Source of the DNA: Polyangiaceae bacterium
GTDB lineage: Bacteria; Myxococcota_A; Polyangia; Polyangiales; Polyangiaceae
Direction: 5' to 3'
Assembly: GCA_025353725.1 (NCBI GenBank)
Contig: JANXOF010000025.1
Coordinates: 1 to 41,516, forward strand
Length of the DNA: 41,516 bases
The notes beneath the pieces were generated by a model. That model saw only the letters and a list, made by a program, of their open reading frames with translations, was not told where the DNA came from and did no database searches. Positions within the stretch are counted from its first letter, which is position 1. Each line of letters opens with the position of its first letter. Position numbers and translations under genes: made by a program. This document shows, in pieces, positions 23,554-28,576 of this stretch.

Positions 23554-24537
23554 GTGAGCACGACCTTGTCTTCGCAGCCTTCGAGTCCCTCGCGCCACTA
23601 TCGGCTCACCATCGATTGCGATGCGCGGACCCCGGGGTTCACCGCCGTCTACCTTCGTATGGGTGGAGGGGAGTGCGCATTCATCGAAACCGAGACGTCG
23701 CACGCGTTGCCGAAGTTGCTTGCAGCACTTCAGGAGTGCGGGCGAACGGTTCACGATGTGCGATGGATTGTCGTGACGCATGCTCACCTCGACCACGCGG
23801 CCGGCGCGGGTGGGTTACTCGCGGCGTGTCCTAACGCGACACTGTTGGCGCATCCACGCGCGGCGAGGCACCTCATCGACCCCGCAAAACTCGTAAAAAG
23901 CGCTACGGCGGTTTACGGAGAAGAACGGTTTGCGGCGCTTTACGGTTCGATCCAGCCCATTCCGAAGGAGCGGGTGCGAGCCCTTGAAGATGGCGAGACC
24001 TTCGAACTCGGCGACGCGACACTTCGCGTGCACCATACAGCGGGCCATGCGAACCATCACTTCGTTATCGACGACCCGGCGATCGAGACGGTCTACACCG
24101 GTGACTCGCTCGGCCTCGTGTACCCCGCACTGCAGACGCGCGGACTCTTCGCGTTAGCCACGACGAGTCCAACGAACTTCGATGCGCACGAGGCGCGCCG
24201 GAGCGTCGATCGTATCCGCGCACTTGGAGAGACTTACGCGTGCCCTACCCACTTCGGAGCCACCACGGAGATCGACGGCGTCGCAAAGCAGCTTCACGCA
24301 TGGATAGACCGCGCCGAGGCGTGGGTGGAGGAGGCGGCGCGCGGACAGGACACTGTCGTGGAGATGACGCGACGACTCGGCGTCGCCTGGCGCGAAGCTA
24401 TTGCCCGGGAGAGCAACGAGAGGAATCTCGGCTTCGGAAAAGCGGAATGGGCTCTTCTCGCGACCGACCTTGACCTCAATGCGCAAGGCCTCGCAGTAGC
24501 TGCAGAGTCAAAACGTAACCCGCGTCCACCCCGCTAG
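23554..24537 (+). CDS. Metallo-beta-lactamase-fold hydrolase (ST1585-like)
   Basis: The product is 327 residues from a GTG. The MBL zinc motif THAHLDH is at ~75 residues in, with later ligands in HHTAGHANHHF and VYTGDSLGLVYP and a distal histidine in CPTHFG. The N-terminal strand order (FTAVYLRMGGGECAFIETE) and overall length fit the ST1585-like subgroup of MBL hydrolases, of unsettled substrate. The C-terminal ~80 residues are a helical extension. It is divergent from the glutaredoxin fusion, with ~47 bases between the starts, so both promoters must be packed there or overlap. A role in thiol/persulfide chemistry is possible from context but unproven. Confidence 0.88.
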   Translation: MSTTLSSQPSSPSRHYRLTIDCDARTPGFTAVYLRMGGGECAFIETETSHALPKLLAALQECGRTVHDVRWIVVTHAHLDHAAGAGGLLAACPNATLLAHPRAARHLIDPAKLVKSATAVYGEERFAALYGSIQPIPKERVRALEDGETFELGDATLRVHHTAGHANHHFVIDDPAIETVYTGDSLGLVYPALQTRGLFALATTSPTNFDAHEARRSVDRIRALGETYACPTHFGATTEIDGVAKQLHAWIDRAEAWVEEAARGQDTVVEMTRRLGVAWREAIARESNERNLGFGKAEWALLATDLDLNAQGLAVAAESKRNPRPPR

Positions 24538-24549
24538 CCCGAACGCGGA

Positions 24550-24582
24550 CGGGGGACGGACGGGGACGGACGGGGACGGGGA
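24550..24582. repeat. GC-rich tandem repeat downstream of the MBL gene
   Basis: About three copies of a 10-base unit CGGGGACGGA lie just after the MBL stop and before the Cys-rich lipoprotein gene. The strand is purely G/A/C-rich and no hairpin is obvious. Confidence 0.8.
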
Positions 24583-24683
24583 TTGCGGCAACGGCAAAGC
24601 GCTTGTTGCTGAAAAATCAGAAACCTGTACCCTTAAGCCTAGCGTAGCGGGCGTCGGGCCCTCCGCCGTGGAGATAGTGGCCT

Positions 24684-27600
24684 ATGCGATCCGCAGCTGC
24701 AATCCGTAGTTTGTGTGTTGTTGTCTCGGTGGCTGCCGTCGCGATAGCCTGCGGGTCTGGTGGCGGGAGCGAATTTGTCGACCCGAATGCCGTGAGCGCC
24801 GCGGACGATGCGGGCGAGGCGCTGCCCTCGCTCGGCTCCTTCGATTTGAGCGACGCCGGAACCGGGGGCGGAACAGGCGACTGCAAGCGCCTTACGTGCG
24901 CAAACCTCAAGGCGACCTGCGGGCCCATTGGCGACGGCTGCGGTGGAATCGTCCAGTGCGGAACGTGCGCCGTGGGGGAGACGTGCGGCGGCGGCGGCGT
25001 TGTAAGTGCTTGCGGAAAGCCCGCGTGCGCGACCAAGACGTGTGCGGACCAGGGCGCAAACTGCGGCGCCTTAGGCGACGGTTGTGGCGGCCTTATCCCA
25101 TCATGCGGCACATGCGACGCAGGCCAATGTGGTGGTGGCGGCCCCAGCAAGTGCGGGGCGGGCGGGGCAGACGCCGGCGCCTGCATACCCACAAAAACAT
25201 TGTGCGCTGCAGGGGATTGCGGACCCATCGCGGACGGCTGCGGAGGCCTTATCAACTGTGCGGTTGCTTGCCCGGCGGGGCAGTCGTGTGGGGGCGGGGG
25301 AACTCCAAGCCTTTGCGGAGCGCCGCCTTGCGTGAAGAAGACATGCGGAACGCAGAATTGTGGATTCGTAGCCGACGGCTGCGGCGGCTCTCTGACGTGT
25401 TGGCCGCCAGCTCCTGCACCATCCGTTTGCGGTCCCGGGGAGTCGTGCGGAGGCGCGGGCGTTCCCAATACGTGCGGAACACCTGCAACATGCACGGGTT
25501 TGTGTCAGCAGCAGGTGACCTGTCCCGGTGGTGGAACGACAAGTATTGAAGGCTATGTCACTTCGCCTAACGGCGTCCTACCCGTGCCGAACGCGGTTGT
25601 GTACGTCCCGAACGGCGCGGTGGCTGCGTTTACCGAGGGCGTCAAATGCGAGACGTGCGCGACCGCGTCGGGAAGCCCTCTGGTCTCGACGACGACGGAC
25701 GCAAACGGTCACTTTTTCTTGCCAAATATGCCCGTGAGCACCCCGGGGAAGGTGACCTCGGTACCCGTTGTCGTTCAGCTCGGTAAGTGGCGTAAACAAT
25801 TCACCATCAGTACGACGGCGTGCACGAACAATCTCGTGCCGTCCTTCGGTGCGGCAGCCGCCAATAAAACAGCGGCTTTGCCGAGCTCACAAGCCGAAGG
25901 CGATATCCCGCTTACCGCGATTTCGACAGGTCAAGTCGACGGTCTCGAGTGTGTGTTTCGTAAGATGGGCGTCGCGAATACCGAATTCACGAGCGGTAGT
26001 GGTTCGGGGCGTATTCGCCTCTATCGAGACAACGGCGCAACGACCGCTGGCGTCGGCGCAACGGATGCCACATCTCTCTACAATCCTGCCGCTGACAACG
26101 CGAGTGGAACTATTTCCGGAGCGACGAATACGTCACCCATCGTGCTGACGACGACGGCCGCGCACGGTCTTTCGACGGGGGCCATCGCGACAGTCTCCGG
26201 CGTCCGCGGCAACAAGGCGGCGAACGGTGCGTTTTCTATCACCGTTGTTGATGCCACACACTTTTCGTTGAATTTTAGCGTTGGCAACGGCGCCTATACC
26301 TCGAAAGGCACATGGAGCTCCTGCAGCGGCGTTGGCTGCAAAGCCGAAATCGACAAGTACGACGCGGTCATTTTTGGCTGCGTCGGCAACGAGGTAAATA
26401 AGCCCGCACCCGCGCGTGCGAACGTTCTCGCGTACGCAAACAAGGGCGGCCGCGTGTTCGCAACCCACCTCTCGTACGTCTGGCTTTACAGCGTGGGCGG
26501 TACCGGTACGGCGGCGTTTCAGTCCCCGTGGGATACGACGGTGACCGCGTGGGACAGCGGTAACGAGATTAGTTGGGACAACGGTACCGTGACGGCTTCT
26601 CTCGACACATCCTTTCCGAAGGGGGCGCTCTTCTCGAATTGGCTTCAGGCGCCGGTGCTTCCCGTCTCCGCGACGTTCGCGCCACCCTACGCGGCGGTGG
26701 CCGCGCTCTCCTCGACGTCGCCACCGATGGTCGCGCTGACCGAGCCGCGTCGAGACATTACGCCCGTGGCGCCGAACCTCTCTACATCTGGTGTCGTGGG
26801 GCCGGCACAACGCTGGCTCTATACGACCGACGACGACGGTAAGGCGTGCGCGGCTCCTGCTGACTGCAAGAGCGGCGTGTGTAAGGCGACGAAATGTGTA
26901 GGGTCGGTAAGCGCCGGAACCCCTGCCGCGGCAGATTCTCCGATGCATTATACATTTAATACGGATACGAGTTTACCACCTGCTTCGCAGTGTGGTCGCG
27001 TGCTTTACAGCGATTTTCACGTTTCAATTGGCAACACCAACGGAGCGACCTTTCCCGATGAGTGCGGTTCAGCACCGCTTAGCTCGCAGGAGAAAGTCTT
27101 GGCGTATTTTCTGTTCGACCTCGCCTCGTGCGTATCCTCATCAACTCCCCCAGCGTGCGTCAAAAAGACGTGCGCGCAGCAGGGGCTCGGCTGCGGCCTT
27201 GCCGGCGACGGTTGCGGTGGTCCACTCGATTGTGGCCCGTGTGCGGTCGGCGAGTCGTGTGGTGGCGGTGGTGTGCCAAGCCAGTGTGGTGCTCCCGCTT
27301 GTGTGAAGAAAGTCTGCGCGCAAGGGACGTGCGGAAAGCTCGGGGACGGATGCGGCGGCACGCTCGACTGCGGAACGTGCGGCGCAGGAACGTGCGGTGG
27401 AGGCGGCGCGAACCTTTGTGGCGGAGCCGCGTGTAACCCATCCGGATGTCCGGCCCCCGCGCCAAAGTCCGTGTGCGGGCCGGTGGCCGACGGGTGCGGC
27501 AAGGTGAATAACTGTCCGTGTCAGGCGAACGTGCCGTGTGTGAACGGAACGTGCGGTGCGCCCGCGTGCGTTGCCCGGACGTGCAGTCAGGCCGGCGCCA

Positions 27601-27716
27601 ACTGCGGTCAAGTCGCGGACGGTTGCGGAGGCATTCTTGCTTGTGGAAACTGCGTCGTACCGCAAACGTGCGGCGGTGGCGGGACTGCGAACCTTTGCGG
27701 CGGCGGCGTGAACTGA
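24684..27716 (+). CDS. Giant Cys-rich repeat lipoprotein with carboxypeptidase-regulatory-like domain
   Basis: The product is 1010 residues. The signal peptide ends in the lipobox-like AIAC near residue 23. Four Cys-rich repeats of ~45 residues follow (~70-270), each with CG-xxGDGCGG, then CGTC and CGGGG elements. Next are a beta domain SIEGYVTSPNGVLPVPNAVV (carboxypeptidase-regulatory type, ~285-390) and a flavodoxin/ThuA-like part split in two. The split is caused by a segment at ~475-545 (AAHGLSTG, VDATHFSLN, GAYTSKGTW) that looks like phage tail-protein modules. The ThuA-like part resumes at YDAVIFGCVGNEVNKP and GGRVFATHLSYVWLY. Four more Cys-rich repeats (~820-1005) close the protein. 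The many Cys imply disulfides at the cell surface. The repeat family is common in Myxococcota and often mis-annotated; its role is unknown. Long antisense frames here are codon shadows. Confidence 0.88.
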   Translation: MRSAAAIRSLCVVVSVAAVAIACGSGGGSEFVDPNAVSAADDAGEALPSLGSFDLSDAGTGGGTGDCKRLTCANLKATCGPIGDGCGGIVQCGTCAVGETCGGGGVVSACGKPACATKTCADQGANCGALGDGCGGLIPSCGTCDAGQCGGGGPSKCGAGGADAGACIPTKTLCAAGDCGPIADGCGGLINCAVACPAGQSCGGGGTPSLCGAPPCVKKTCGTQNCGFVADGCGGSLTCWPPAPAPSVCGPGESCGGAGVPNTCGTPATCTGLCQQQVTCPGGGTTSIEGYVTSPNGVLPVPNAVVYVPNGAVAAFTEGVKCETCATASGSPLVSTTTDANGHFFLPNMPVSTPGKVTSVPVVVQLGKWRKQFTISTTACTNNLVPSFGAAAANKTAALPSSQAEGDIPLTAISTGQVDGLECVFRKMGVANTEFTSGSGSGRIRLYRDNGATTAGVGATDATSLYNPAADNASGTISGATNTSPIVLTTTAAHGLSTGAIATVSGVRGNKAANGAFSITVVDATHFSLNFSVGNGAYTSKGTWSSCSGVGCKAEIDKYDAVIFGCVGNEVNKPAPARANVLAYANKGGRVFATHLSYVWLYSVGGTGTAAFQSPWDTTVTAWDSGNEISWDNGTVTASLDTSFPKGALFSNWLQAPVLPVSATFAPPYAAVAALSSTSPPMVALTEPRRDITPVAPNLSTSGVVGPAQRWLYTTDDDGKACAAPADCKSGVCKATKCVGSVSAGTPAAADSPMHYTFNTDTSLPPASQCGRVLYSDFHVSIGNTNGATFPDECGSAPLSSQEKVLAYFLFDLASCVSSSTPPACVKKTCAQQGLGCGLAGDGCGGPLDCGPCAVGESCGGGGVPSQCGAPACVKKVCAQGTCGKLGDGCGGTLDCGTCGAGTCGGGGANLCGGAACNPSGCPAPAPKSVCGPVADGCGKVNNCPCQANVPCVNGTCGAPACVARTCSQAGANCGQVADGCGGILACGNCVVPQTCGGGGTANLCGGGVN

Positions 27717-27827
27717 CGCCTAGCCTGCCCCGGACAAAGCATAACGCGGATCCCTCGGCCTTCGGCGTTGAGTAGCTTCAAGCCGAGGCGTCGAAGTCAC
27801 GCGAGTTCGGCCGCGCTTTCGGCTCGC

Positions 27828-27852
27828 ACCTACGCTTTCGTATCGCGTAGGT
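27828..27852. other. Perfect 8-bp inverted repeat in the leader of the barrel gene
   Basis: ACCTACGC and GCGTAGGT are separated by 9 bases, ending 10 bases before the ATG at 27863. In RNA it would form a hairpin right in front of the start codon. It may control translation, bind a dimeric regulator, or be the terminator of the upstream gene without a U run. Confidence 0.45.
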
Positions 27853-27862
27853 TCGAAGACTC

Positions 27863-28576
27863 ATGAGGATCCGATTCGCGTCCGTGTCGCTCGTGATGGT
27901 TTTTGCGGCTCATTCAGCGTACGGCGATTCATCCCGTCCGCCGGACCCGTCCGTGACGACGGAGGAACCCGGGCCCGTCGTCGCCGGCTCCGCATCGGCA
28001 GACCCAGCGACTCCCAGGAAAGAACGCCTTTTTAGGTTTGGCGGCGGCTTTCTCATGACAGGCGGCATTGTCGCCACTGAAAAGCCGAGCTCAGGCGACC
28101 CGGCAGGACTCTATCCCGGTTATTTTGGCTCAAAGTCGGGTGTGGGCGTTTCGCTCGAGGGACGGGTTTTCGGCGCGCTAGGCCTTCAGGTAGACATCCT
28201 CCGCGTGAGCGAGGACGCGACCGCTGAAATCAATCGCGTAAAAAACCACCTCGAACAGACGGCGCTGCATGTTCCGGTTTACGCGAAAGGCATCTTACCG
28301 TTTGGGCCGGTTCGCCCGTTCGTCGGCTTTGGCCCGGAGTTCGTTTTCGGCGTTACAGAGAATTATACGCTGCTCGGCGGGATGCTTGGCGTCGAAGGCT
28401 ATATCCCAATAAAAAGCGTCGTGCTGCTTATCCCTTTTGGCCTTCGGTACGCGTACAACGTCGGCATGGGCAGCACGCTTCAGGACCGCTCCGAAACGTT
28501 TTTCGGCCAGCAAACTCCACGCCCCAACTTCCAGCACAACGCGGGCCTCACTCTCGGCGTAAGTCTCCTTTACTAG
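27863..28576 (+). CDS. Outer-membrane beta-barrel protein
   Basis: The product is 237 residues with a signal peptide (MRIRFASVSLVMVFAAHSAYG, cleavage near residue 21). A disordered Pro/Ser/Asp linker of ~30 residues is followed by alternating hydrophobic/polar strands: FRFGGGFLMTGGIV, GVGVSLEGRVFGALGLQVDIL, LHVPVYAKGILPFGPVRPFVGFGPEFVFGV, and a final LTLGVSLLY. Ending in a hydrophobic-aromatic pattern with terminal Tyr fits Bam recognition of a barrel. Eight to ten strands are plausible. The closest general type is the OmpA/porin-like family of small outer-membrane barrels. Its substrate is unknown. The hairpin at 27828-27852 is in its leader. Confidence 0.8.
   Translation: MRIRFASVSLVMVFAAHSAYGDSSRPPDPSVTTEEPGPVVAGSASADPATPRKERLFRFGGGFLMTGGIVATEKPSSGDPAGLYPGYFGSKSGVGVSLEGRVFGALGLQVDILRVSEDATAEINRVKNHLEQTALHVPVYAKGILPFGPVRPFVGFGPEFVFGVTENYTLLGGMLGVEGYIPIKSVVLLIPFGLRYAYNVGMGSTLQDRSETFFGQQTPRPNFQHNAGLTLGVSLLY

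Follow-up and report, generated by a model that had tools for sequence, protein, structure and literature searches.

A phage-type, E1_FCCH-like module probably captured in frame by a predicted Cys-rich lipoprotein of a Polyangiaceae bacterium

The 41,516-nucleotide stretch analysed here, referred to as the window, belongs to a Polyangiaceae bacterium (contig JANXOF010000025.1, assembly GCA_025353725.1) and contains a gene at 24684-27716 on the forward strand which, according to the list of open reading frames (ORFs) and its translation, encodes a predicted lipoprotein of 1010 amino acids (AA). The ORF starts with ATG and comprises 1010 codons without an internal stop. The main finding is that residues 474-545 of this protein (26103-26318, forward strand), as delimited by profile, structure and homologue comparison, are a phage-type E1_FCCH-like module, probably a virion module captured in frame within a hypervariable loop of the lipoprotein, where it would add a ligand-binding face, likely for a glycan. 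In the proposed course of events, a phage-type module of about 72 residues with FCCH fold would have entered a loop of the core domain in frame, on the lineage leading to the source bacterium, once this lineage had diverged from the nearest homologue sampled. Since the module keeps most of the residues that are conserved in its phage relatives, it would most likely fold as an independent beta domain projecting from the loop. By analogy with comparable phage tailspike barrels, the surface protein would thereby gain an additional face for ligand binding, with a glycan as the most likely ligand.

A sequence-only reading of this gene had proposed a foreign segment at about residues 475-545 with the character of phage tail and baseplate proteins, and both the position and the character of the segment were borne out. 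The matches to E1_FCCH, to phrog_584 and to viral contigs place its limits at about 474-545. In the profile search of the segment, which that reading had suggested as a check, E1_FCCH (PF16190) was matched with an E-value of 4.3e-6 and 27.1 bits (80-AA fragment; 26.9 bits in a second scan), and phrog_584, described as 'major tail protein', with an E-value of 1.3e-5. The cut-off of PF16190 is 29.5 bits. On this profile evidence, the module is E1_FCCH-like, just under the cut-off, and is therefore not counted as a member of the family. A scan of viral contigs with the single sequence, covering candidate stretches only, returned three loci, the best with 66% identity and an E-value of 5e-24. The window module is 61-69% identical to the three copies in two viral loci (L036 and L037), with which it shares the motifs GATN, SPI, VDATHFSLN and GNGAY, and the two copies of L036 lie within an ORF resembling a baseplate wedge protein (phrog_6, E 4.9e-8). 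A scan with a five-row alignment, which contained the window row, yielded at least 600 stretches, 262 of them encoding relatives, and 79 loci were kept. E1_FCCH was matched at E<=0.01 by 35 of the 37 module rows (36 viral rows and the window).

The annotated carriers are consistent with a module of phage type. Of the matches in annotated phage records, the strongest (E 1e-6, 44.6% identity) lies in a 'phage stabilization protein' whose gene adjoins one annotated as major capsid protein; Pantoea phage PdC23 follows with a match in its 'baseplate J like family protein'. Among the 43 selected viral carriers, 26 match phrog_584, a family that apparently contains the module itself, so that these matches do not mean 26 major tail proteins. 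Other carriers of this selection (25 of 40 families listed) fall into families of the tail spike, the central tail fibre, the sheath, the baseplate wedge and the major head protein, with one or two carriers for each of these virion families. One viral carrier (L062) holds seven module copies or pieces. The virion modules of phrog_584 and of the wedge-like ORF can be aligned with the window module and share its motifs, but the window module sits in a lipoprotein of the host. Among open-licence papers in PMC, none was found that joins E1_FCCH with phages; titles on FCCH and phage concern E1, UBA1, ubiquitin or SUMO, those on FCCH in bacteria or homologs mostly ubiquitin or ISG15, and a search for domestication of phage-tail domains in myxobacterial lipoproteins gave only type VI secretion.

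The structure prediction that the sequence-only reading had also suggested agrees with these matches. The module model, based on an alignment with 36 viral copies (A7), has a pLDDT of 89.3, a pTM of 0.77 and six strands. The 50 PDB matches listed by Foldseek consist entirely of E1 chains and the FCCH domain on its own, with a best E-value of 6.2e-6. After re-ranking of the Foldseek matches with a second aligner, Uba6 reached a Z-score of 12.8 with an rmsd of 1.5 over 83 aligned residues; for 2v31, an FCCH domain in isolation, the Z-score to the module model is 10.6. Among predicted viral structures, the best match has a TM-score of 0.82 and an rmsd of 0.5 over 71 columns, and one of those matched is already named FCCH domain containing in public records. 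The profile of the module (36 viral rows and the window) also found E1 enzymes among the PDB sequences, with a best E-value of 1.8e-4. The window module is thus confidently predicted to have the FCCH fold. Below the E1 chains follow the phi92 endosialidase (Z 8.4), the T1 tail tube (8.2), the LKA1 tailspike (7.4) and the K1F endosialidase (7.3), although by the aligner's own note Z-scores of 7-8 may reflect merely a common arrangement; identity to the endosialidase barrel (PF12195) and tailspike modules in this range is 12-16%.

E1_FCCH, the first catalytic cysteine half-domain of the eukaryotic ubiquitin E1, shares its fold with the module and sequence kinship with the module profile. It differs in that the carrier here is a bacterial lipoprotein, that no ubiquitin system is implied and that the window score lies under the Pfam cut-off. 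In a passage of PMC12355090, the FCCH domain of E1 is likewise described as inserted by loops into another domain, and by analogy an FCCH-type domain may be suited to loop insertion. A passage of a 2024 review calls the FCCH domains of NAE1 (printed NEA1) and SAE1 unique to eukaryotes (PMC11354881).

The comparison of the insertion site shows where and when the module was probably acquired. The lipoprotein is matched at E<=0.001 by 110 of 144 relatives, some over part of the length only, and 30 other homologues were compared at the site, namely those in the returned loci after removal of duplicates. All of them, the sister included, have a different loop there, and the module profile has no match in any of these 30. 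Between the conserved flanks, the loop measures 98 residues in the window protein and 15-96 in the others. The nearest homologue, from genome G047 (contig L032, JAEUKG010000018.1), has a loop of 31 residues, 67 shorter than that of the window, and aligns to window residues 4-462 and 534-1007, with only 3 bases separating the two matches. In a 30-row tree of the core, it is the sister of the window protein (97/96). Since the homologues including the sister are without the module, it was presumably gained on the lineage of the window, and an in-frame insertion after the split from the nearest sampled homologue is well supported by these alignments. Neither is the segment present in all orthologues nor are the phage matches non-significant, the combination that the sequence-only reading had named as speaking against its proposal. 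Its proposal of phage domain capture holds as far as the significant viral matches and the homologues without the insert are concerned, while direct capture is favoured but not proven.

Wider searches gave the same restricted distribution. Among 318 ORFs of at least 200 AA from 35 loci, the module profile had two matches, both of them copies of the window gene, and among 986 ORFs from 38 further loci its only matches were the window gene and one tailspike-like gene from genome G011. Across 12 genomes of the genus, the module was found in this lipoprotein only in the genome of the window. Matches spanning the module region were examined in G144, G153, G161 and G163 as well as in G004, G005, G009, G010, G044, G049, G064 and G112, and no module was found in them. 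Three loci of the same genus (L004, L005 and L006) have Cys-rich segments of 96, 95 and 48 residues in the loop that spans 26040-26340 in the window. Judged from these alignments, the loop is an insertion-tolerant, hypervariable hot spot at which inserts change. Around the site, the direct repeats measure 8-12 nucleotides, and none brackets the module convincingly as a target-site duplication.

Regarding the source of the module, the 91 best-scoring of the 132 other copies, by pairwise score against the window copy, come from viral contigs, and the first copy from a bacterial genome, in the tailspike-like protein of G011, ranks 92nd of 132. A phage-to-host direction of transfer is favoured by this sequence comparison. 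Among bacteria of the phylum the module is rare, and carriers were found in at least 5 of 193 relatives and at least 9 of 377 genomes of the phylum, with the genome of the window in both of these overlapping sets. Carriers in the phylum with a phage-like type are a baseplate J protein (G035) and tailspike-like proteins (G011 and G187). The carriers L130 and L136, read from their N-termini, are presumably tail-tubular-B-like, and L131, L133 and L134 are further carriers without an assigned type.

Two other groups of carriers were observed in the phylum. In G011, a relative of the same genus, the tailspike-like genes L125 (C186, 7512-10064) and L129 (C111, 7870-8448) encode pectate-lyase-like regions plus FCCH modules or a piece of one. 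By eye, they adjoin nucleotidyltransferase-like and polysaccharide-synthesis-like genes and not phage genes, and they are possibly domesticated tailspikes. The other group consists of predicted lipoproteins. L126 (G185, 3-2330), which starts at a contig edge, is a predicted Ig-domain lipoprotein with an FCCH-like module near its C-terminus; it has no PHROG match and is a second non-phage surface carrier in the class. L137 is a predicted beta-helix lipoprotein whose E1_FCCH match of 41.6 bits exceeds the Pfam cut-off. L132 and L135 are predicted Sortilin-type lipoproteins in which the module was found by profile, with no Pfam match to E1_FCCH at E<=0.01.

The sequence conservation of the window copy is informative about its state. 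All 8 columns that are 100% conserved are kept, as are 19 of 21 at the 90% level, 25 of 29 at 80% and 30 of 36 at 70%. Because these conserved columns are kept, the module is argued to be folded and is probably useful to its carrier. Glycan binding is the best guess for its role, by analogy, since tail and spike proteins carry the module as an accessory domain, endosialidase barrels are among its matches and the K1F barrel has a known site. According to a passage of PMC12632334, this K1F endosialidase barrel bears a polysialic-acid site. The endosialidase barrel family PF12195 was weakly matched by 2 of the 37 module copies, with a best E-value of 0.0048.

The composition of the module and its neighbourhood indicate that it has settled in the host. 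Its GC content at third codon positions (GC3) is 0.667, compared to 0.673 in the rest of the gene, whereas the 12 viral copies listed have values of 0.75-0.99, above that of the window module. Eight of the ten scanned neighbouring genes carry ordinary cellular Pfam families and two carry none. The PHROG matches of these ten include no virion family, so that no sign of a prophage was seen among them.

Several observations besides the caution on the Z-scores of the phage proteins weigh against the proposed course of events. Only 24 of 50,697 annotated phage records have matches at E<=10, with 9 of them covering at least 80%. The viral set was picked with a profile that contained the window copy, which favours viral ranks, and the module tree (133 rows and 79 columns, leaving out rows below 55 residues, above an E-value of 1e-3 or identical to another) does not resolve the placement of the window copy. 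Bacterial copies were sought within the phylum of the window only, and for many genomes in the searches of the 193 relatives and 377 phylum genomes, only part of the first-look candidates was scored. The overall GC content of the module is 0.583 compared to 0.633 for the gene, which corresponds to the 18th percentile of gene stretches of the same length. At the DNA level, the closest of the fetched viral copies is 67% identical to the module, and the donor was not found. Within this lipoprotein, the module is known from one genome in one copy, and its deviation from the conserved columns is exceeded by only 4, 2 and 2 of the 36 viral rows at the 90, 80 and 70% levels, respectively. Finally, the four predicted lipoproteins mentioned above, with lipoboxes recognized by eye, carry distant copies of the module, so that its source could be another bacterial gene.

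Two alternatives carry some weight. The module may be a neutral passenger, a phage-type segment in a permissive loop without a selected role, which is doubtful but deserves serious consideration. Length and content of the loop differ among the 30 other homologues, a single genome has the module in this protein, and the window copy departs from the conserved columns more than most viral copies do. Nevertheless, the invariant columns (8 of 8) and near-invariant columns (19 of 21) are kept despite the low DNA identity and the gene-like GC3, and a neutral segment of such a presumed age would probably have lost its core. Alternatively, the module may have come from another bacterial surface protein, with FCCH-like modules circulating among lipoproteins and phages. 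The copies in the Ig-domain, beta-helix and Sortilin-type predicted lipoproteins are in line with this scenario, but they have at most 46% identity to the window copy and, in the search limited to the phylum, all four rank below the 91 viral copies, which makes such a source rather unlikely.

The other explanations carry far less weight. It is hardly credible that the ancestor of the lipoprotein family already had the module and that every other lineage then lost it, as its lack in the 30 other homologues, including the sister, would require many independent losses. An assembly chimera of a phage fragment and a host gene, for which the 98 contigs of the genome and its contamination estimate of 3.43% could be cited, was judged unlikely on the frame, the flanks and the GC3: one and the same gene lies on either side of the module and is read through in frame, and the GC3 is about that of the gene and below that of the viral copies. 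Its probability is close to negligible. A more specific role than ligand binding in general would be receptor masking, in which the displayed module binds the cell's own glycan and blocks phages that use the same module. The type and place of the module fit this idea, as does, by analogy, the glycan site in a structurally comparable phage barrel, but no phage infecting this bacterium turned up in the analysis; it is considered very unlikely. A broader proposal, in which FCCH is an insertion-ready module that drops into loops of phage virion proteins, of bacterial lipoproteins and, at the root of the eukaryotes, of E1, and in which the captured module may present a phage adhesin on the surface of the host and mask a phage receptor, is improbable in this full form.

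Traffic of domains between phages and hosts is already known in this general form, and Ig-like domains are common to phage virions and bacterial proteins. They are a comparable example of a small, exposed beta domain in such traffic; their fold differs from that of the module, and for the module a homologue that lacks the insert is available. Such traffic is usually inferred from distant similarity. Here, where the insert is delimited and a close homologue lacks it, the structural and functional consequences of capturing a single virion module are accessible to direct measurement. In addition, the sequence match of the module profile to ubiquitin E1 makes a wider origin of FCCH testable.

The remainder of the protein, encoded on the same strand, largely follows the layout proposed from the sequence. 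It begins with a signal-peptide-like start at 24684-24752, in which a lipobox-like AIAC (residues 20-23, by eye in the translation) ends at Cys23; the lipoprotein status is a prediction. The eight Cys-rich repeats expected in two groups of four were recovered by their DGCG motifs, with outer limits set by eye. The N-terminal repeats (24882-25478) have DGCG at residues 84, 132, 184 and 231 and all precede residue 266, and the C-terminal repeats (27156-27704) have it at 842, 888, 936 and 979 and all follow residue 824. In total, the protein contains eight DGCG motifs and 83 Cys residues. The proposed carboxypeptidase-regulatory-like domain (25542-25736) stands only as a weak match to CarboxypepD_reg (PF13620; E 0.0062), with 17.3 bits not reaching the curated cut-off of 32.3 bits; similar weak matches occur in two homologues.

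The core domain surrounding the module is common to 29 homologues (alignment A8, which leaves out L019, where the C flank is missing, as well as L032, a copy of L003, and L033, a copy of L008). Its first part, with a weak resemblance to ThuA, lies at 25896-26087 as delimited by these homologues and hhalign, and its second part together with the end of the variable loop at 26319-27149 as delimited by homologue alignments. The ThuA-like domain named by the sequence-only reading is not established. In the Pfam scan, the window protein gave no match to ThuA (PF06283) at E<=1. One of the 29 homologues matches it with an E-value of 0.018, but six unrelated families likewise match one member each, one of them better. 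In hhalign, the core reaches a probability of 40.7% against ThuA over 45 columns only, and the PDB profile search with the core found no ThuA-type chain. Without a significant match by Pfam, PDB profile or hhalign, ThuA was dropped as a firm label of the core. The structure model of the core, built on only four sequences, has a pLDDT of 33.4. At residues 722-738 (26847-26897), the core domain of the window protein contains a short Cys-rich motif with four Cys residues that has no counterpart in three aligned homologues.

No match to the lipoprotein gene was found in the plasmid collection, no tandem array of it at the DNA level and no sigma-70-like promoter match at 24400-27950. The families of its neighbours comprise an AMP-binding enzyme, glutaredoxin and rhodanese, a metallo-beta-lactamase fold, a histidine kinase, an NtrC-type regulator, PAP2, a Clp ATPase and an MPAB/Lcp oxygenase. 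The source genome contains one full-length copy of the lipoprotein gene and one short partial match.

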